From contig JARKQH010000403.1 of assembly GCA_029974925.1 (NCBI GenBank), positions 1-58,320 on the forward strand: a stretch of 58,320 bases of DNA, read 5' to 3'. Positions within the stretch are counted from its first letter, which is position 1. Each line of letters begins with the position of its first letter. Position numbers and translations under genes: made by a program. Below, one piece after another: positions 37,650-48,875 of the stretch. Source of the DNA: Verrucomicrobiota bacterium. GTDB lineage: Bacteria > Verrucomicrobiota > Verrucomicrobiia > Limisphaerales > UBA8199. Below the pieces are notes generated by a model. It did not search any database, was not told where the DNA came from, and saw only the letters and a list, made by a program, of their open reading frames with translations.

Positions 37650-37679
37650 TTGACGTTTAGGGCAAAAGCGCAATATTCA
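37650..37679 (+). promoter_or_regulatory. candidate sigma-70-type promoter of the act operon
   Basis: TTGACG (37650-37655) followed after 17-18 nt by ATATTC/TATTCA (37673-37679). It would start transcription near 37687, about 94 nt before actA. Confidence 0.3.
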
Positions 37680-37780
37680 CAAATCCTGTATGTGGTGTAA
37701 GGCGCAATCTGATGGCGGCCGATCCTTGCGGGTTGATCCACTGCGAACCGCCGGGGATTGGACCTGACCCTTTTGACACA

Positions 37781-38434
37781 ATGTCTGCGATTTTTCCAAA
37801 ATGGACGAATCGGTTGCCCCTGATGGTGCTGACGGGTGGCTTGCTGGTGGGGGGGGCCTTGGTGGCCGGGGCGTGGTATTACCTGACCCCCAAGTACTCG
37901 CGCGTGGGTTACAAGCCCATTCAGCCGGTGGCCTTTTCGCACAACACGCACGTGAATCAGTTGGGCATGGACTGCCGGTATTGCCACAACGCTGTCGAGC
38001 AGTCGTGGTATTCGAACCTTCCGGACAGTGCCAAGTGCATGAACTGTCACAACCAGGTATTGAAGGATGATCCGCGCCTGGCCCTGGTGCGGGAGAGCGC
38101 GGCGACCGGACAGCCGATTCCGTGGGTGCAAATCCATCGCGTGCCGGATTACGTCTATTTCAACCATTCGGTTCACGTCACGCGGGGCATTAGCTGCGTG
38201 GAATGCCACGGGCAGATTGACCGAATGGAAGAGGTTTACCACGCGCAGCCCTTGAGCATGACTTTTTGTCTGGATTGCCATCGGCATCCGGAGTTGAAGC
38301 TGCGTCCGTTGGACAAGATTACTGACATGAATTGGCAGCCGGAATCCCCCTTGCAACAGCGTGAGTTTGGACAGCGCGCCATAAAGAATTGGAAAGTCGA
38401 ATCGCTGGAAAACTGCTCCGCATGCCACCGATGA
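37781..38434 (+). CDS. actA: alternative complex III subunit ActA, pentahaem cytochrome c
   Basis: A 217-residue protein with one N-terminal membrane helix (LPLMVLTGGLLVGGALVAGA) and five CxxCH haem sites: CRYCH, CMNCH, CVECH, CLDCH and CSACH. This matches the pentahaem ActA of alternative complex III, which passes electrons from the Fe-S subunit ActB to mono-haem partners on the periplasmic face. The ATG at 37781 is chosen because the membrane anchor follows; the open frame extends upstream. Its stop overlaps the actB start (ATGA). Confidence 0.95.
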   Translation: MSAIFPKWTNRLPLMVLTGGLLVGGALVAGAWYYLTPKYSRVGYKPIQPVAFSHNTHVNQLGMDCRYCHNAVEQSWYSNLPDSAKCMNCHNQVLKDDPRLALVRESAATGQPIPWVQIHRVPDYVYFNHSVHVTRGISCVECHGQIDRMEEVYHAQPLSMTFCLDCHRHPELKLRPLDKITDMNWQPESPLQQREFGQRAIKNWKVESLENCSACHR

Positions 38435-41400
38435 ACCCTCTGCCCTCCGCTTCCCCGCCTCCGGAATCCGGCCGCGCTTATTGGCGGAGCCTGGATGAAC
38501 TGTCCGACACGCCCGAGTTCCGCCAATGGCTCGAGCGGGAATTTCCCGAGGGGGCCAGCGAGTGGTTTGACCCGGTGTCGCGGCGGCACTTCGTGCGGAT
38601 CATGTCGGCGTCGTTTCTCCTGGCGGGTTTGGGCCTGGCGGGGACCGGGTGCCGGCGGCCCGAGCAAAAGATTCTCCCGTTCAGCAAAATGCCGGAGAAT
38701 TACACCCACGGAGTGCCGCAGTATTACGCCACCTCGATGCCGGCGCGGGGCGGCTCGTTACCCCTGGTGGTCAAATCGCACGACGGCCGCCCAACGAAGA
38801 TCGAAGGCAATGCCTTGCATCCCGATAGCAACGGCGGCACCGACCGTTTCGCCCAAGCCTCGATCCTGAACCTTTATGATCCCGACCGCGCGACGCGTTT
38901 CCTGAAGGACGGAATCGCGACCACGCCCGAGGCGGCGCTGGATTTTCTTGCCACGCTCTCCCGGCAGCTCCAGACCGGCGGAGGCCGGAAGCTGGCCTTG
39001 CTGGTCGAACGCAATTCTTCTCCTTCCCGGGAGCGGCTGCTTAGCCTGCTAACCGAAAAGCTGGGGGCGCGGGTCTTTTTGTATGAGCCGGTGCAGACCG
39101 CGGCGGATCAATTGGCGGCGCAGCAGGCCTTCGGCCGGGCGGTAAAACCCATTCCGCATTACGACCGGGCCCGGACGATCCTCTCGCTGGACTGCGATTT
39201 TCTGGGGTCTGAGGACGGCGTGCACAACCATATCCGGCGCTTTGCGCAGGGGCGGAAGATCGAGAAGCCAGACGACTCACTCAACCGGCTGTATGCGGTG
39301 GAGAGCCTGCTCACTTTAACCGGGGCCAACGCGGATCACCGGTTGCGGGTGCCGAGCAGCGGGGTGGCGCTGGTGGCCGCCGCCATTGCCGCCCACATCC
39401 TGCGGGGGGACTCCCGGCCTCAAGGATTGGATCAGATCGCCCCGCCACCCGGCGTGGACCCGAGGTGGATTTTGGAATGCGCCAAGGATCTTTTGCAGCA
39501 CCAGGGTCAGAGCCTCGTGGTTGCCGGCCACCGCCAGCCTCGCGTGGTTCATTTGCTGGCCTATGCCATGAATGTGGCCCTCGGCAACGTCGGCAAGACG
39601 CTGGTCCTGAATGAAGCGCCGCCGTTGCGGGAACAGAACCTTCCGGAACTGGCTCGCGCTCTTCATGCCGGCGAGGTCGAAACGCTGGTAATCCTCGGCT
39701 GCAACCCGGTGGCGACCGCGCCGGCGGATTTGGACTGGGCCAGTGCGCAAAAGCGGGCGCGGACGGTGGTGCGGCTGGCATATTACGAGGACGAAACCGC
39801 CCCCCTCTGCACGTGGCACCTGCCGGCAGCTCATTTCCTGGAGTCCTGGGGGGATGGTTTGGCTCAGGACGGCAGCCTCGTTCCGGTTCAACCGCTGATT
39901 GCCCCGCTGTTTGGCGGGTTGACCGAGCTGGAGGTGTTGGCCCGGATTGCGGGTTATCCCACCTCCAGCCCCTACGAAGTGGTTCGCGAGACCTTTGCCG
40001 GGTTCGTTAAAGGGGCGAACTTCGAGGAGGCGTGGAAGAAATTTCTCCATGACGGTTTCCTGGCCGGGTCGGCGGCCCGGCCGGTCGCGGCCACGTACAA
40101 TCCAGCGCCGCTGTCGCAGGCGCTGCCGAGCCTCCAACCCGCGTTGCCGTCCAAAGACCGGCTCGAGGTGGTCTTTCATCTGGATTACAGCGTGGACGAC
40201 GGCCGTTACAACAACAACGGCTGGCTGCAGGAAATGCCGGACCCGATCACCAAAATGACCTGGGACAACGCGGTCCTCATCAGCCGCAAAACCGCCCAGG
40301 AGCTCGGGGTGAAGAACCACGAGATGGTGGAAATCGCCCTGGGGGGCCGCGTCACGCGCGGCCCGATCTGGATTCAACCGGGCATGGCCGACTACTCGCT
40401 CGGGCTGGCGCTGGGCTATGGCCGGACCCGTACCGGGCGCGTGGGGCACAAAACAGGTTTTGATGTCTATCCGCTGCGGACCACCGGAGCCGAACATTTC
40501 GCCGTTGGGGCCAGCCTCAAGCCCCTGGGCACGACCTATCCGCTCTCGTGCACCCAGGACCATTGGTCCATGGAAGGTCGGCCGATTGTGCGCGAGGCCA
40601 ATTTGAGCCAATATCGGGAGCATCCGGACTTTGCCACGCGGATGAACGCCGAGGAACCTCCGGTCAACCAGCCCCTCTATCCAAACCCGTTGGACAAGTT
40701 GAAACCCAGTGCGCTGCATCAGTGGGGCATGGCCATTGATCTGAACCGGTGCGTGGGCTGTTCCGCGTGCATCATGGCATGCCAGAGCGAGAACAATGTT
40801 CCCATCGTGGGCAAGGAGCAGGTCCGCCGGGGGCGCGAGATGCACTGGATTCGGATTGACCGCTACTACGCCGGCAATCCCGCGCAACGGCAGTACACGG
40901 ACAGCTACAAACGCGAGCAGCAGCAGCAGTTCGAGGCCTGGGTGGATGACCCGCAGGTGGTGACGCAGCCCATGCTCTGCCAGCATTGCGAGGCGGCGCC
41001 ATGCGAGAACGTCTGCCCCGTCAACGCCACGGTACATGATCACGAGGGCCTTAATGTGATGGTGTACAACCGCTGCGTCGGCACCCGGTATTGTTCGAAC
41101 AACTGTCCTTACAAGGTGCGCCGCTTCAACTACTTTGATTACAACAAACGGCCCATCACCGCGCTGTATCTCGGGCCTTTTGGACGGCGCAAGGACGATG
41201 AATGGGACCTGCTGAAGATGGTCAAGAACCCCGACGTCACCGTGCGCATGCGCGGGGTGATGGAAAAATGCACCTTCTGCACTCAGCGAATTGAAGCGGC
41301 CAAAATCGCGCAGAAAGTCAAAGCGGGCGCGACGGGCGAGGTGGTGGTGCCGGAGGGAACCTTCACCACGGCCTGCGCCCAGGCGTGCCCCGCGGGCGCA

Positions 41401-41664
41401 ATTGTTTTTGGCAACCTGAATGACCCCAACAGCCGCGTGGCCAAACTCAAACAGCAGGACCGCAATTACAGCGTCCTGGACCTGCTGCTGACCAAGCCCA
41501 GGTTGACCTACCTGGCCCGGGTGCGGAACCCCAACCCGGCGATGCCGGACTACCAGGAAGCGCCGCTGAGTTTCGAACATTTCCGCGAAAAAATGGGTGA
41601 TCCCTTCAAGCACTCCAACACGGGCTCTGGACAGGGTCACGCGACAGGGAAAGGAGGCCACTGA
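38431..41664 (+). CDS. actB: alternative complex III subunit ActB, fused molybdopterin-like/Fe-S protein
   Basis: A 1077-residue periplasmic subunit. An extended Tat region ([14 protein letters not shown], then [19 protein letters not shown] and a lipobox-like LAGTGC) leads to a molybdopterin-oxidoreductase-like domain that lacks an N-terminal Fe-S Cys set and, in known ActB, carries no molybdenum. The last 320 residues are a ferredoxin-type domain with Cys clusters [11 protein letters not shown] (about 774), [14 protein letters not shown] (about 850), [12 protein letters not shown] (about 881), CTFC (about 947) and CAQACPAG (about 981). In characterised ActB these bind three [4Fe-4S] and one [3Fe-4S] cluster. 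Start and stop overlap actA and actC. Confidence 0.95.
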
Positions 41665-43094
41665 TGGCCGCGCGAGCCACTCCCTTGACCATTCCCGAGC
41701 CCCCGGCCGAGCTGCAGCGGCCGTTGCTGGTGGACAACTACCGCAGTTTCGGCTGGATCTCCAACCGCGTTTGCTCGCTCACCGAGGGCAAGGCCCCGGT
41801 CTGGTGGTGGGTGTTGTTCATTCCGAGTGTTCTGGCGCTGGGGATGTTGCTGTTCATGCTCGGTTATCAAATTTCCACGGGCGTGGGCGTTTGGGGCAAC
41901 ATGCATCCGGTGATGTGGGGCTGGGATATCATCAATTTCGTCTGGTGGATCGGCATCGGCCATGCCGGTACTCTCATTTCGGCCATTCTCTTCCTCCTCC
42001 GCCAGCGCTGGCGCACGGCGGTGAACCGGGCGGCCGAGGCCATGACCATTTTCGCGGTCATGTGCGCGGGCATTTACCCGGCCTTGCACGTGGGGCGGGT
42101 TTGGTACGACTGGTGGCTGTTCCCGATCCCGAACTCGAACTCCATCTGGCCGCAGTTCCGGTCCCCGCTGATGTGGGACGTTTTTGCCGTTTCGACCTAT
42201 TTCACCGTCTCGGTGTTGTTTTGGTACATGGGCCTGATTCCGGACCTGGCGGTGATGCGAGACCGGGCGCGGACCAGGATTCGTCAGTTCGCTTACGGGC
42301 TGTTTGCCCTGGGATGGACCGGCTCGAACCGGCACTGGAGCAATTACGAAAAGGCCTACCTGATTCTCGCGGGGCTTTCGACCCCGCTCGTGCTTTCGGT
42401 TCACTCCATCGTGTCGCTCGACTTCGCCGTTTCACAGGTGCCCGGCTGGCATACCACCATTTTCCCGCCTTATTTCGTGGCTGGCGCGATCTTCTCCGGA
42501 TTCGGCATGGTGCTGACGCTGCTGATCCCGCTGCGGAGCATCTTCAAACTCGAGGACATCATCACCCTGCGGCACATAGACGTGATGTGCAAAGTGACCC
42601 TGGCGACCGGCTCGATTGTGGGTTACGCCTATGGCATGGAGTTTTTCATTGCGTGGTATAGCGGCAGCCCCTATGAGCGCTTCGCGTTTATCAACCGGGC
42701 GCTCGGGCCGTATTGGTGGGGGTATTGGACCATGATTGTCTGCAACGTGGTGGTGCCGCAGTTGTTCTGGTTCAAGTCCTTGAGGCGCAACCTGGTGGTG
42801 GTGTTCATCATTTCCATTCTCGTTAACATCGGGATGTGGTTCGAACGCTTTGTCATCATCGTGATCTCGCTGCATCGGGACTTTGTGCCGGCCAACTGGG
42901 GTTACTACTCGCCCTCGTGGGTGGATATCTGCACCTACGTTGGCACCTTTGGCCTGTTTTTCACCCTGTTCCTGTTATTTATCCGGTTCTTGCCCATGAT
43001 CGCGATTTCCGAAGTCAAGGGCGTCACCCCGCAGTCGGATCCGCACCATCCGCTGGGCGGCGCCAAAATCAAGGAGATGGCCCTCCATGAATAA
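41664..43094 (+). CDS. actC: alternative complex III subunit ActC, NrfD-like quinol-oxidising membrane subunit
   Basis: A 476-residue integral membrane protein of the NrfD/PsrC family with about ten helices. Segments such as [20 protein letters not shown] and [20 protein letters not shown] are typical of ActC. In the structurally known complexes this subunit holds the quinol site next to the ActB [3Fe-4S] cluster. The ATG at 41664 overlaps the actB stop (TGATG), and the stop overlaps the actD start by 8 bp. Confidence 0.95.
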
Positions 43095-43626
43095 TGCGCC
43101 CAAACCCTACGGCATCATTGCCGAATTCCGCACGGCGGCGGACATTTTGCACGCCGCGGAGAAAGTGCGGGACGCCGGCTATCAGAAGTGGGATGTTTTC
43201 ACACCCTTTCCCGTGCATGGCATGGACCGCGCAATGGGACTCAAGAATTCGAAGGTGGGTTGGTTCGCGTTTCTCGGGGGGGTGGCGGGGTACACGACGG
43301 GGATGTTGATGATCTGGTTCATGAACGCCCTGGACTATCCGCTGGTGGTGGGGGGCAAGCCGATGTTCAGTCCGTTTTACGCCTTCCCCCCTTCTTATGA
43401 GCTCACGATTTTGTTCGGGGCCTTCGGCTCGCTGTTCGGGATGTTGTTCTTGAACCGCCTGCCGCGGTTGTACCATCCCCTGCTCAAGAACCGCCGCTTC
43501 GCGCTCGTGACGCATGACCGGTTCTTTCTGGTCATCGAATGCGCGGACCCGAAGTATTCGGAGGCCCAGGCTCGCAAATTGCTTGAAGAAGCCGGCAGCC
43601 GGCACATCGAAATGGTGGAGGACTGA
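43087..43626 (+). CDS. actD: alternative complex III subunit ActD (DUF3341)
   Basis: A 179-residue membrane protein of the DUF3341 family: a cytoplasmic alpha/beta start ([20 protein letters not shown], then [18 protein letters not shown]) and two helices (about 59-83 and 102-122). ActD is a structural subunit without cofactors. It has GGAG upstream inside actC and overlaps both neighbours. Confidence 0.93.
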
Positions 43627-44270
43627 TGCGCTACTTTTTCGCCCTCTTCGCCGTTTCCGTCGCGGCCGTGATTGCTCTGTTGGGTTTTCGCGGCAGCCAC
43701 TTCCGCAAGCCGCCGCTTTACATTTTTCCGGACATGGAATTTCAATTGAAGCTCCGCCCCCAGGCGCCCAGCGGCTTCTTCCCCAACGGCCGGACCTCGC
43801 AACTGCCGGTCCCAGGCACGATTGCGCGCGCGGTGCCGGTGCAGACGGCATCGGGGCCGGTGTTCCCCTTTGAGGATGCGCCGGTTAACACGGGCTGGGT
43901 TGTCGGAACGACCAATTTTGTCGAGCACAATCCGCTGCCGATCACTTCCGCATTACTCAAGCGCGGCCAGCAGCGATACACCATCAACTGCGCCCCTTGC
44001 CACGGCGGGCTGGCGGATGGGAACGGCATTACGCGGAAGATCGGGGCAATGGCCGTGGTTGCGAATCTGCATGACAAACGCATTGTCGAGATGCCGGATG
44101 GAGAGCTGTTCTACGTGATTACACATGGGCGCAACCTGATGGGGCCGTACGGGGCCCAGGTCTCGATCGAGGACCGGTGGGCCGTGGTTGCCTACCTGCG
44201 GGCGCTCCAACTGGCCCGGCTGGGGGAACCCGAGGATTTGCCGCCGCAACTGCGAACCTTGCTGAAATAG
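43626..44270 (+). CDS. actE: alternative complex III subunit ActE, mono-haem cytochrome c
   Basis: A 214-residue periplasmic cytochrome with an N-terminal membrane anchor/signal (YFFALFAVSVAAVIALLGF), one CxxCH site (CAPCHGG, about residue 122) and a late Met in NLMGPYGAQV as the probable sixth ligand. ActE is the usual exit cytochrome of alternative complex III toward a terminal acceptor. ATG overlaps the actD stop (TGATG). Confidence 0.93.
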   Translation: MRYFFALFAVSVAAVIALLGFRGSHFRKPPLYIFPDMEFQLKLRPQAPSGFFPNGRTSQLPVPGTIARAVPVQTASGPVFPFEDAPVNTGWVVGTTNFVEHNPLPITSALLKRGQQRYTINCAPCHGGLADGNGITRKIGAMAVVANLHDKRIVEMPDGELFYVITHGRNLMGPYGAQVSIEDRWAVVAYLRALQLARLGEPEDLPPQLRTLLK

Positions 44271-44277
44271 TGGCTCT

Positions 44278-45537
44278 ATGAAGAAGTCCATGTCCACCCC
44301 CCTGGATTTGTCGCGCTGGCGGAAGGTGCCCCTGCTGTTGACGGCGGGCGGCGGCTTGGTGGCTCTGCTGGGCTTGCTGGTCAACCGGGAGCAGTTTGCC
44401 TTTTCGTGGCTGCTGGCGTTCATGTTCTTTTTGAGCTTGAGCGCCGGGGCGTTGTTCCTGGTGATGGCCCATCATCTGTTTGATGCGGGGTGGTCGGTGC
44501 CCCTCCGCCGGTTCCTTGAGCACCTCGCAAATCTGTTCCCGTGGCTGGCGGTCCTGTTTGTGCCGATCGCGCTGCTGGCGCCGACGCTTTACCAGTGGAT
44601 GAGCCTGGATCCGCATCTGGACCATGCGTTGCACGCGAAGCAGCCCTTGTTCACGCGGCCGATGTTTTACGCGGTGGCCGCCATCTGTTTCGGCGTGTGG
44701 ATCTTCCTATCGAACCGGCTCCGTCACTGGTCGCTTGAACAGGACCGCTCCGGCGCGGCCCTGCCCACCCACCGCATGCGCTTTTATTCGTGCGTCGGAA
44801 TCTTTCTGTTTGCGATCACGTTGACGCTGGCGGCAATCATGTGGATGAAGGCGCTCCAGCATCAGTGGTTTTCAACGATGTACGGGGTGTACTATTTTGC
44901 GGGAAGTGTCTGGATGACCCTGGGGACGGCATACCTCATCACCCTGGTGCTGGACCGGCAGGGGGTGCTGACCGATACCCTGCATGATCACCAGTATTAT
45001 TTCCTGGGCTCGCTGCTGTTCGCGTTCACGGTGTTTTACGCCTACATTCATTTTTCCCAGTATTTCATCATTTGGAACGGGAACATGCCGGAGGAGACCT
45101 TCTGGTATGTGCTGCGCGAGAAGGGCACCTGGTGGTGGGTGGGAATGGTGATCATTTTCGGGCATTTTTTCCTGCCATTCCTCGCTTTATTGCGCATAGA
45201 TGTGAAGAGTATGTTTGGGTTCATGGCGCCGCTCTGCGGCTGGACCTGGCTGATGCACTACCTTGACTTGTCTTTCAACATTATGCCGGTGAAGCATCCC
45301 GACGGGTTCGTCCTGCATTGGATTGACCTCGGGTGCTGGGCATTCATGGCGGGGTTGCTGACGATGATCTTTCTGCGGGAGTACGGCAAGCATCCCCCCT
45401 ATCCCCTGAAGGACCCGCGGCTGGTGGAGGCAATGGGGTTCGCGCATCCGATTCCGACGCAGATATCCGGCGGAGAGCTGGATGAATGCGATGACACGCC
45501 GGCTGTGCATCCGGAAGTGCAGGGAGGTCGCCAATGA
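44278..45537 (+). CDS. actF: alternative complex III subunit ActF, NrfD-like membrane subunit
   Basis: A 419-residue ten-helix membrane protein paralogous to ActC. It has the His/Trp-rich conserved segments of ActF (AIMWMKALQHQWFSTMYGVY, GTWWWVGMVIIFGHFFLPF). In known complexes ActF has no cofactor and may form a proton-conducting path. An alternative start at 44290 has no clearly better ribosome site. Confidence 0.93.
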   Translation: MKKSMSTPLDLSRWRKVPLLLTAGGGLVALLGLLVNREQFAFSWLLAFMFFLSLSAGALFLVMAHHLFDAGWSVPLRRFLEHLANLFPWLAVLFVPIALLAPTLYQWMSLDPHLDHALHAKQPLFTRPMFYAVAAICFGVWIFLSNRLRHWSLEQDRSGAALPTHRMRFYSCVGIFLFAITLTLAAIMWMKALQHQWFSTMYGVYYFAGSVWMTLGTAYLITLVLDRQGVLTDTLHDHQYYFLGSLLFAFTVFYAYIHFSQYFIIWNGNMPEETFWYVLREKGTWWWVGMVIIFGHFFLPFLALLRIDVKSMFGFMAPLCGWTWLMHYLDLSFNIMPVKHPDGFVLHWIDLGCWAFMAGLLTMIFLREYGKHPPYPLKDPRLVEAMGFAHPIPTQISGGELDECDDTPAVHPEVQGGRQ

Positions 45538-45908
45538 ACGAAGGTGGATTGAAACAAGGTGCTTCAGCCGCCCTGGCGGTGGCGATTGTGGGGACGTTCC
45601 TGATCGTGGCCGGACTCGTGGGGGTGATGCGGCGGCATACGCAGGCGCCGCTGGTGGATGCGGCGCGGATCGCGGAGCGGAGCAAGGCGCTGGCGGAACT
45701 GCGGGAAGCGGAGGCGGTGGCCTTGAGCACGCCGGCCTGGATTGACCAGGCCAAGGGCCTGGTCCGGCTGCCCATTACCAATGCCATGGACTTGGTGCTG
45801 CGGGCCTGGGAGAATCCGGCCGCGGCCAGGTCCAACCTGATTGCGCGGGTTGAGAAAGCCACGGCGGCGCCGCCCAAGGCGCCGGAGAAACCCAGTGAGT
45901 TCGAGTGA
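45534..45908 (+). CDS. small single-helix membrane protein of the act operon
   Basis: A 124-residue protein with one N-terminal helix (ALAVAIVGTFLIVAGLVGVM) and a periplasmic domain containing WIDQAKGLVRLPITNAMDLV. The WxDxxKGxVRxPIxxAM pattern is shared by small proteins found beside cytochrome oxidase and complex III genes in several phyla. No cofactor motif is present. GGGAGG lies 6 nt before the ATG, and both ends overlap neighbours, so it is probably a subunit or assembly factor bridging complex III and the oxidase-like module. Confidence 0.7.
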   Translation: MNEGGLKQGASAALAVAIVGTFLIVAGLVGVMRRHTQAPLVDAARIAERSKALAELREAEAVALSTPAWIDQAKGLVRLPITNAMDLVLRAWENPAAARSNLIARVEKATAAPPKAPEKPSEFE

Positions 45909-47374
45909 TGGTTTCTCCGGAGGCAAAGGCCAAAGCGGCGGCAGGCGCGCCGGCGATTGACGCTGGGAGCGCCGAGGAGACCGTTTCGTGCCGGTGGCCC
46001 TTGCTGGTTTTGTTTTTGGGCGCGGCGGGGTGGCTGGTGGCAGGCTCGCTGCTGGGGCTCCTTGCCTCGATCAAATTTCATTCACCGATGTTTCTGGCTG
46101 AACCGGCCTGGCTCACGTACGGCCGGGTGAAGGCAGCCAGCGCGGCCCTCCTGGTTTACGGCTTTTGTGTCCCTACCGCGCTCGGAGTGGGCTTGTGGTT
46201 GATGTCGCGCCTGGGGCGCGTGGCCCTGGCCGGGCCGGTCGTGGCGGGATTCGGCGGGGGGCTCTTGCATGCGGGCGTGGCGGTGGGTTTGGTGGGAGTG
46301 TTGCGGGGTGACGGGACGGGATTTCTTCATTTGGAGTTTCCGGCGGGGGCGGCGGGCCTGGTTTTTTTGGGGTATTTGTTGCTCGGGACGGTTGGGGTGC
46401 TGACGTTGTATCGGCGCCGGGAAGCGCGGATGGAGGCGGCGCAATGGTTTGTGCTGGCAGGGTTGTTTTGGTTTGGGTGGATCTATTCGACGGCGAATTT
46501 GTGTTTGTTGGTGTTCCCGGTGCGGGGTGTGGCCCAGGCAGCCATCAATTACTGGCATACAGGCAACTTGCTCGGGGTGTGGATGGGGTTGATGGGGCTG
46601 GGGACCGTGTTTGCCTTGCTGCCTAGGCTGGCGGGGCGTGAACCGGGCCGGGAGTATGTCGCCATGTTTGTTTTTTGGGTCTTGTTGTTGTTCGGGAGCT
46701 GGACAGGCATCCCGGCGACGGCGCCGTTGCCGGCCTGGATGCCGGCCCTTAGCACTGTGGGCACAGTCTTGAGCGGATTGGGCGTGCTGGGAGTGGCGGT
46801 CATTGTTCATCAAACACTGGCTGGCAGGTATGGTTCGGTATGGCGGGATGAGCGGTTGCGGTTCCTGGGGTTGGGTGTGGCCGCGTATGTCGTGGGAGGG
46901 GTCATGCAAGTCGTTGAGGCTCTCAGCGGGAGGTCGTGGATGCTGCACTTCACCTGGTTCACAGCCGCGCGGGAGTGGATGCAGGTTTATGGTTATCTGG
47001 CTCTGGTGATGTTCGGGACGGTTTATGCCATTGTGCCGGCGTTGGTGGGGGTGGATTGGTGGAGCCGGCGTTTCTTGCGGTTGCATTTCTGGCTGGCGGG
47101 CGCCGGTTTGTTGTTCGTGGCGGCCCCGCTGGCGGCGGGCGGTGTGGTGGAAGCCGCGAGGCTGTTGAATCCTGCACTGGGATTTGTGGAAGTGAGCCGT
47201 GGAACGCTGATGTTTTTGCGGCTGAGCACGATTGGCGAGCTCTTGATTTTGGCTGGGAACGGCTTGTTCTTCGTGAATCTGGCGGGGACGGTGGCGGGTA
47301 TTTGTCGGCGCGCCCTGGCCGATGCACTCCGACGTTGGGGCGCGGAGACGACGGGAGAGGGGGCTGCGGCATGA
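45908..47374 (+). CDS. CcoN-like (cbb3 oxidase subunit I-like) membrane protein lacking all haem/copper ligands
   Basis: A 488-residue protein with about twelve helices that aligns with cbb3-oxidase subunit I: WLTYGRVKAASAALLVYGF matches the first haem-ligand helix, NLLGVWMGLMG the CuB helix, and HFTWFTAAREWMQVYGY the last ligand helix. The family ligands are all replaced: low-spin haem His is S78, CuB His is G219, the CuB His-His pair is G267-I268, and the His-x-His of helix X is R355/W357. The chain has only seven His in all, with no HH or HxH. It is therefore unlikely to bind haem b, haem b3 or CuB. Codon use is shifted toward TTG, GGG and GTG relative to neighbours. It overlaps both neighbours. 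Likely a structural membrane scaffold. Confidence 0.85.
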   Translation: MVSPEAKAKAAAGAPAIDAGSAEETVSCRWPLLVLFLGAAGWLVAGSLLGLLASIKFHSPMFLAEPAWLTYGRVKAASAALLVYGFCVPTALGVGLWLMSRLGRVALAGPVVAGFGGGLLHAGVAVGLVGVLRGDGTGFLHLEFPAGAAGLVFLGYLLLGTVGVLTLYRRREARMEAAQWFVLAGLFWFGWIYSTANLCLLVFPVRGVAQAAINYWHTGNLLGVWMGLMGLGTVFALLPRLAGREPGREYVAMFVFWVLLLFGSWTGIPATAPLPAWMPALSTVGTVLSGLGVLGVAVIVHQTLAGRYGSVWRDERLRFLGLGVAAYVVGGVMQVVEALSGRSWMLHFTWFTAAREWMQVYGYLALVMFGTVYAIVPALVGVDWWSRRFLRLHFWLAGAGLLFVAAPLAAGGVVEAARLLNPALGFVEVSRGTLMFLRLSTIGELLILAGNGLFFVNLAGTVAGICRRALADALRRWGAETTGEGAAA

Positions 47375-48276
47375 GGCATGGCGCGTTGGTTTATCTGGGG
47401 GCTTTTTTTGCCCTCGCCCTGTCGTGGACGGGTTTTGTGCTGACACCGCAGATGCAGGTGGGACAAATGGTGGCAACGAACACGGTGCCGGCAGGGGCCC
47501 GCTATCCGGTGGCGCGGCCGGGTTTGGCGCAACAGGGACTCCAAGTGTATCGGGCAAACGGTTGCGCCTATTGCCATAGCCAGCAGGTTTGGCAGCAGGG
47601 CACCGTGTTTGATGTCATGTTGACCGATGGCGGAACCAACCAGCCAGGGGTGGTCGCGGCCCTGCAGGCGGTGATGCCCCGCTTGTCCCGGCCGGAAGCT
47701 TTGCAGTTGCTCGAAGGGTTGCCCAAGCCCGTCCTGCGGGGCGTCAGCCGGGAGGAGGCGGAAAGCGCGGTCAAGAAGCTGACGACGAGCGGAGCCAAGG
47801 CCACCCTGTGGATCGAGGCGGTGGGGCCTGATCTTGCCCGGGGCTGGGGAAAACGGCGAAGTGTGCCGGAAGATTTCTTGTATGATTACCCCGTGCTGCT
47901 TGGGGCGCAGCGGGTTGGACCCGACCTGGCTGACGTCGGTGTTCGTCAGCCGGATGTGGGCTGGCATTTGAGGCATTTGTATGCGCCAGCATCGGTCGTG
48001 ACCGGCTCGGTCATGCCGGGGTATCCGTATCTGTTCGAAAAGCGGCGTGTCGTAGGGGCGGGGTCCGCAGACGCCCTGGCGTTGAGCGGGGACCATGCTC
48101 CCGAGGTCGGATACGAGGTCGTGCCGAAGCCGGAAGCCAAGGCGCTCGCAGCTTATCTGGTGAGCTTGCGCGCGGACGCGCCCTTGTTTACCGCGCCGTT
48201 CAGTGTGGGGGCCTCGGGCGGCCCGGCGGCGCCGGCAACCAACGCGGCGCCAACTGCGGGAGGGGGTGTTCCATGA
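47371..48276 (+). CDS. ccoO: CcoO-like mono-haem cytochrome c with an inserted L7/L12-like domain
   Basis: A 301-residue anchored cytochrome c: N-terminal helix (ALVYLGAFFALALSWTGFVL), haem site CAYCHSQ (residues 65-71), and the conserved CcoO second half (RVGPDLADVGVRQPDVGWHL, SVMPGYPYLF with Met215 as probable axial ligand). Between them, residues about 79-147 do not belong to CcoO and resemble the C-terminal domain of ribosomal protein L7/L12. The C-terminus is a Gly/Ala/Pro tail. CcoO normally brings electrons to CcoN; here the CcoN-like partner has no metal site, so electrons may go to the next cytochrome or to a soluble acceptor. It overlaps its neighbours (ATGA at both ends). Confidence 0.88.
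   Translation: MRHGALVYLGAFFALALSWTGFVLTPQMQVGQMVATNTVPAGARYPVARPGLAQQGLQVYRANGCAYCHSQQVWQQGTVFDVMLTDGGTNQPGVVAALQAVMPRLSRPEALQLLEGLPKPVLRGVSREEAESAVKKLTTSGAKATLWIEAVGPDLARGWGKRRSVPEDFLYDYPVLLGAQRVGPDLADVGVRQPDVGWHLRHLYAPASVVTGSVMPGYPYLFEKRRVVGAGSADALALSGDHAPEVGYEVVPKPEAKALAAYLVSLRADAPLFTAPFSVGASGGPAAPATNAAPTAGGGVP
47605..47811 (+). other. ribosomal protein L7/L12 C-terminal-domain-like insertion in the CcoO-like cytochrome
   Basis: Residues about 79-147 start with VFDVMLTDGGTN and contain EALQLLEGLPKPVLRGVS and REEAESAVKKLTTSGAKA. They follow, in order and spacing, the L7/L12 pattern EFDVVLxxxGxNK, EAKDLVExAPxxVKEGVS and KEEAExxKKxLExAGAxV. The match covers the whole small domain of about 70 residues. 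It sits between the haem-binding CxxCH and the Met-ligand half of the cytochrome. Confidence 0.75.
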
Positions 48277-48875
48277 GCGTTGAAATGCGGCGCCCTGCGC
48301 AGCCGGCAACTGAGGGGCGGGAGGAGCCGACGCCGCAAGGTGCGGTCCCGATGTGGCTGTTTATCCTCCTGTTCGTGGCGTTGTTTTGGGGTATGAACTA
48401 TTTTGACCGCCACGGCGCGTGGTTCAACGGGCGGGTGTACGCCCCCTACCGGTCGCTCGCCGAGTTGCAGATGCATCAGCCGCCCACGGGCGGCATCAAT
48501 TTGGAGCGCGGCCGCGCCGTTTACGAAAGCGTATGTGCGCTTTGTCATGGCGTGGATGGGAAGGGCAAGCCCGGACAGGCGCCGCCGCTGGCGGGGGCGG
48601 AGTGGGTGCTGGGGCCCGTGAACCGCTTGGTGCGGATCCCCTTGGCGGGGTTGACGGGGCCAATCGAGGTCAACGGACAACAATGGAATCTGGCGATGCC
48701 GGCAATGGGAGCGGCGCTGTCGGATGAGGATTTGGCGGCAGTCTTGAGCTACATGAGGACCTCGTGGGGGAACAAGGGCACGGAGGTTACTGCCGAGCAG
48801 GTGGGCGCCGTCAGAAAGGAGATCGGCAACCGAACGCAACCGTTTACGGCTGCGGAGTTGCTGACCGTGCAGTGA
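48273..48875 (+). CDS. membrane-anchored mono-haem cytochrome c (CcoP-like)
   Basis: A 200-residue protein with a cytoplasmic start, one helix (MWLFILLFVALFWGMNYF) and one class-I cytochrome c domain: CALCHG at about residue 89 and a candidate axial Met in NLAMPAMGA. Canonical CcoP has two haems, so this is a one-haem version, matching the third position of a cbb3 operon. It is the last gene of the ten-gene act operon; a weak hairpin follows. Confidence 0.88.
   Translation: MSVEMRRPAQPATEGREEPTPQGAVPMWLFILLFVALFWGMNYFDRHGAWFNGRVYAPYRSLAELQMHQPPTGGINLERGRAVYESVCALCHGVDGKGKPGQAPPLAGAEWVLGPVNRLVRIPLAGLTGPIEVNGQQWNLAMPAMGAALSDEDLAAVLSYMRTSWGNKGTEVTAEQVGAVRKEIGNRTQPFTAAELLTVQ

Follow-up and report, generated by a model that had tools for sequence, protein, structure and literature searches.

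The CcoO/FixO-like cytochrome c subunit encoded at 47371-48276 of the window, i.e. the whole stretch of 58,320 nucleotides that was analysed, contains an L7/L12 C-terminal domain (CTD), as established by sequence, structure and phylogeny. We propose, with a probability of roughly 0.55, that this subunit is part of a cytochrome relay linked to alternative complex III (ACIII), in which the L12 CTD may serve as extracytoplasmic spacer or docking module and the CcoN-like neighbour as ligand-free scaffold.

An L7/L12 domain between the two heme c halves of a CcoO-type subunit

The CcoO-like gene and its relevant elements are located as follows:

47371..48276, + strand: CcoO/FixO-like mono-heme c subunit of 301 aa that carries the L12 insert (PF02433 2.2e-22, PF00542 1.4e-10; CcoO chains in the PDB)
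47563..47577, + strand: CxxCH heme c attachment motif (C65-H69), just 5' of the insert (from the sequence; invariant in 41 homologues)
47608..47808, + strand: ribosomal L7/L12 CTD (residues 80-146; structural domain about 77-151; Pfam, AF2 and fold comparison)
48013..48015, + strand: Met215 in SVMPGYPYLF, 3' of the insert (conserved in at least 90% of homologues)

The protein is composed of one N-terminal transmembrane (TM) helix, the CxxCH motif (residues 65-69), about 74 further residues and the Met half typical of FixO, with Met215 probably being the axial heme ligand, as in the CcoO family. The FixO profile PF02433 scores 80.1 bits (cut-off 29.6; best stretch 164-226), and CxxCH motif, Met half and TM anchor are all found. 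With both CxxCH and MPxYP conserved across homologues, the site for heme c is intact.

The initial annotation had claimed an L7/L12-type domain at 47605-47811, between the CxxCH and Met halves, and had suggested a profile search, a structure prediction and a survey of homologues as checks. The claim holds in all these respects. PF00542 (Ribosomal_L12) matches the open reading frame above its cut-off (41.8 versus 25.9 bits, E 1.4e-10, profile positions 1-66 of 67), with limits agreeing within one codon; the insert stretch alone reaches 43.1 bits, and a search of the window's genome with the same profile also found the insert. The placement is exact, as homologues without the insert align as 1-77 and 151-295. 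With phmmer, bL12 chains (8yeq, 2.8e-7; 1ctf, 2.2e-5) and a CcoO chain (8smr, 9.9e-16) were found in the PDB for one and the same protein. Neither equivalog level is reached, i.e. the protein scores 70.0 bits against CcoO TIGR00781 (threshold 200.65) and 34.2 bits against bL12 TIGR00855 (threshold 84.4), the latter match being to the CTD only, without the N-terminal dimer domain. As the insert lies between two c-type heme halves and behind one N-terminal TM helix, it can soundly be predicted to be extracytoplasmic.

Fold and probable origin of the insert

In the AF2 model (41 homologues) the insert has pLDDT values of 94-98, and its elements (strand 77-86, helix 91-101, helix 107-113, strand 119-125, helix 127-139, strand 143-151) follow the order of L12. 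Comparison by VIA-align gave a Z-score of 13.5 and an rmsd of 1.0 Å over 68 residues with the E. coli L7/L12 CTD (1ctf) and a Z-score of 14.1 with bL12 in 8yeq; bL12 CTDs rank top, at 34-35% identity, so that the predicted fold is that of the L7/L12 CTD, as the initial annotation had expected. ClpS chains superpose on the insert as well (Z about 9-10), which might suggest that the insert resembles L12 in fold alone, without descent from it. We consider this hardly credible, since the PF00542 score exceeds the Pfam cut-off, the identity to bL12 structures is 34-35% with L12 ranked above ClpS, and the domain tree places the insert within the ribosomal L12 of the window's order. A ClpS-like fold without L12 ancestry was thus ruled out by sequence and tree.

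The window's genome encodes a separate ribosomal L12 elsewhere (89.5 bits in the PF00542 search). In a tree of 81 CTDs over 71 columns, which has low internal support, all inserts from CcoO group in a single clade (SH-aLRT 87); the order's own ribosomal L12, together with all non-ribosomal copies, is separated from the ribosomal L12 of other orders by a branch with a support of 98. By profile scores 30 of 55 inserts are closer to the rplL of their own order, the copy in the window not being among them. The most likely source of the domain is the rplL of the order itself, a scenario that the tree favours, at low internal support.

Distribution of the insert

Among 58 relatives some CcoO homologues align through the insert and the others as 1-77 and 151-295, implying the same insertion point every time. 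The genome samples were drawn from Verrucomicrobiota. In 88 of 387 genomes sampled across the phylum CcoO is matched at E 1e-20 or better; the match extends into the insert in only two (G000 and G053), both from the window's own order, and the insert is absent from every genome of this sample outside that order. Within the order, CcoO was found in 201 of 245 sampled genomes, and in at least 83 the match runs through the insert without a break. One scan of the contigs of public assemblies found insert-bearing relatives in Verrucomicrobiota only. An assembly or annotation artefact is ruled out, as no fewer than 83 genomes of the order share the identical architecture.

A CcoN-like partner without heme and copper ligands

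The gene directly upstream encodes the presumed partner subunit:

45905..47374, + strand: CcoN-like heme-copper oxidase subunit I lacking each of the six heme b/b3/CuB histidines (PF00115 2.1e-29; ligand columns; fold)

The ligand columns were set by a reference oxidase subunit I on another contig of the same genome (C235), which keeps the six histidines; the CcoN-like protein has S, G, P, A, R and W at these columns. Its AF2 model (pLDDT 92.7) has a TM score of 0.85-0.88 to cbb3 CcoN (3mk7_A), i.e. the fold is kept. The reference on C235 is one of two other oxidase subunit I genes that are present elsewhere in the genome.

The loss is not restricted to the window. Of 105 distinct loci only 12 have all six histidines, and none of these 12 carries the insert, whereas the 58 loci with insert retain none of the six (42 loci), one (13) or three (3), and never six. 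The three CuB histidines are retained at L001, L002 and L122. A single event on the CcoN tree accounts for the loss of the ligands. The insert falls inside this ligand-less lineage and requires 9 changes by parsimony (gain plus losses), at least 3 of them forced by well-supported branches. Between closely related CcoN genes without ligands dN/dS is mostly 0.13-0.22 (0.63 in one pair), and these are therefore maintained rather than decaying genes. The gene at 45905-47374 and about 90 related loci may be described as a pseudo-oxidase lineage behind ACIII under purifying selection.

One might argue that the CcoN-like protein is redox-active with replaced ligands, constituting an unusual oxidase or NO reductase with the L12 domain as regulatory part of CcoO, and the complete cbb3 CcoN fold as well as the three CuB histidines at the loci just named would fit this idea. 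It is nevertheless improbable, as no one position retains histidine, 42 of the 58 insert loci lack all six with substitutes being mostly A, G, P and Q, and the genome has genes for other oxidases at other places.

The ACIII gene neighbourhood

The genes around the CcoN- and CcoO-like pair are the following:

37661..38431, + strand: ActA-like multiheme cytochrome (open frame; PF14522 1.6e-15)
38365..41661, + strand: ActB (open frame; 8k9e_B 1.1e-252)
41601..43091, + strand: ActC, NrfD-like (open frame, true start inside; PF03916; 6f0k_C 4.6e-199)
43000..43623, + strand: ActD (open frame, true start inside; PF11821 ActD 2.2e-66)
43626..44270, + strand: ActE-like cytochrome c (PF13442 4.9e-13 and position)
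44278..45537, + strand: ActF of alternative complex III (6f0k_F 2.1e-63)
45534..45908, + strand: orfX, small conserved membrane protein between ActF and CcoN-like (conserved in relatives' loci)
48273..48875, + strand: CcoP-like mono-heme cytochrome c (PF00034 1.5e-12, PF13442; adjoins the module in relatives)

A complete ActA-F set is thus located upstream of the oxidase-type genes; orfX matches no Pfam family above its cut-off. The linkage to ACIII is conserved at both ligand-bearing and ligand-less verrucomicrobial loci with enough flanking sequence. The oxidase setting in which the CcoO-like host had initially been seen does not stand: the partner CcoN lacks the heme and CuB ligands and the genes belong to an ACIII cluster, and from these two features of the locus we conclude that the CcoO-L12 host probably does not belong to a working oxidase.

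Sequence change and selection on the insert

In 40 inserts of standard length, as compared to 51 ribosomal copies, K65 (kept in 2/40), K70 (2/40), R73 (5/40), G79 (6/40) and K84 (3/40) are lost, and L80 is gone from nearly all. K65, K70, R73 and K84 are each found in 51/51 ribosomal copies, where G79 and L80 are invariant, too. We take these six positions to be the translation-factor-binding face of L12. Positions of the fold core are retained (G62 39/40, P91 38/40, A103 36/40, G114 34/40), and a new GTN motif has appeared (T63 36/40, N64 36/40). Judging from these residue counts, the translation-factor face is erased and the fold core is kept. As the surface used on the ribosome is gone, any docking would be new. 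The intact L12 CTD fold might still invite the idea that the domain binds translation factors and ties the respiratory complex to ribosomes or to co-translational insertion. This is extremely unlikely, since K65, K70, R73, L80 and K84, invariant in the 51 ribosomal copies, are lost and the domain resides behind a TM helix within a periplasmic c-type heme domain.

For most pairs dN/dS of the insert is 0.10-0.36 (up to 0.63), and the insert generally evolves faster than the CcoO flanks. Its length varies, with 70-residue inserts and a partly lost fold at L075 and L129, and very enlarged inserts at L049, L058, L060 and L128. In the CcoO homologue at L049 (4697-5938, - strand) the insert looks like a tandem of two L12-like domains. 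Between the CcoO genes of L093 and L092 the insert is 70% identical (dS 1.6) and the downstream part 95% (dS 0.2), which looks as if the insert region was swapped by recombination.

The fast evolution, the up to 9 changes on the tree, the partial loss of the fold and the enlarged copies fit an insert that is weakly constrained. The main rival to our relay and docking model sees in the L12 domain a passenger, tolerated in a permissive loop of a module already free of catalysis, folded only so as to spare the heme domain and having no partner. The faster evolution relative to the flanks, the several branches of the tree on which the insert is absent or lost and the size variation with internal duplications all speak for such a passenger. 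Against it stand the at least 83 genomes of the order that carry the insert, the mostly low dN/dS values and the conservation of both fold core and new GTN motif in 40 divergent copies, and we regard this explanation as a possibility to be taken seriously, though a rather doubtful one.

Other proteins with L12 CTDs in the order

Further non-ribosomal proteins of the order contain L12 CTDs:

L210 716-2284, - strand: GntP permease with L12 CTD after a hydrophobic segment (also L213; genomes G448, G568)
L224 154-1554, + strand: TPR protein with L12 CTD
L225 700-2250 and 2211-3566, - strand: two adjoining proteins with N-terminal hydrophobic stretch (membrane-anchored) and C-terminal L12 CTDs

The GntP permease, found in the PF00542 survey in two genomes of one genus, scores 506 bits as GntP with the insert at 263-328, and GntP relatives in the order without insert match 1-258 and 331-522 only. 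On the domain tree the GntP, TPR and membrane-anchored copies group with the order's ribosomal L12. We tentatively suggest, at slightly less than even odds, that the rplL-derived L12 CTD of the order has become a general-purpose module for insertion into non-ribosomal proteins, most of them located in the membrane or envelope. L205 (229-552, - strand) and L206 (237-512, - strand) encode short proteins in which no more of L12 than alpha4-alpha5 is present and the C-terminus is hydrophobic; such partial matches were seen in many of the surveyed genomes.

Discussion

The CcoO-like protein shares with CcoO/FixO of cbb3 oxidases (PF02433; 3mk7, 8smr) the N-terminal TM helix, the CxxCH motif, the GPDL...MPxYP Met half and the gene order CcoN-CcoO-CcoP, but differs in the additional 74-residue L12 domain after CxxCH and the ligand-free CcoN partner, and it stays below the NCBIfam equivalog cut-offs. 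With the bL12 CTD (PF00542; 1ctf, 8yeq) the insert has the beta-alpha-alpha-beta-alpha-beta fold (1.0 Å) and a homologous sequence in common, whereas the N-terminal ribosome-binding domain and hinge are absent, the factor residues are lost and the domain would sit in an extracytoplasmic cytochrome. The arrangement of ActA-F directly upstream of oxidase-type genes resembles ACIII and ACIII-oxidase supercomplexes (6f0k, 6btm), such as the ACIII-CIV supercomplex of Flavobacterium johnsoniae (PMC8361435); however, as the oxidase-type core in the window has no heme or copper ligand at all, it cannot be a normal complex IV. In Methylacidiphilum, from the same phylum, ACIII is co-located with cbb3-type genes, which the available passages of the source describe as oxidase, mentioning neither ligand loss nor an L12 insert (PMC6688271). 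In the Nitrospina cbb3 one CuB site is changed and most ligands are kept. Our search of the open literature found no L12 domain in a cytochrome oxidase, nothing on point for non-ribosomal PF00542 proteins or ligand-less oxidases beside ACIII, and no paper that names the factor-binding residues of L12.

How might the module work? Without heme b ligands in CcoN, electron transfer from CcoO to heme b is impossible, which is why we propose a cytochrome relay on ACIII instead of a terminal oxidase. In our preferred reading the CTD of the order's rplL would have entered the loop that follows the CxxCH helix in a CcoO-type subunit of a cbb3-like module behind ACIII, and this may have happened when the CcoN of the module was already devoid of heme and CuB ligands. 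The L12 domain would fold outside the cytoplasm, beside heme c, where it may act as a rigid spacer or as a docking module, keeping an electron partner in place or in orientation. Such a partner might be found among the subunits of ACIII, in the adjacent CcoP-like cytochrome or in a separate oxidase; for this particular role our confidence is moderate and it is a guess. Electrons would pass from ActA/E via CcoP/CcoO to a separate acceptor, and the dead CcoN would serve only as membrane scaffold. The relay itself is what we infer from the ligand-free CcoN behind ACIII.

A universal translation domain has thus found a new use, in a different compartment and process, with its binding face erased and its fold kept. 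The oxidase core on which it rides is conserved and attached to ACIII, but apparently dead as a catalyst. This raises the question whether, in these widespread and mostly uncultured bacteria, a pseudo-oxidase may serve ACIII as scaffold for a cytochrome wire, the contacts of which would be set by the L12 domain.
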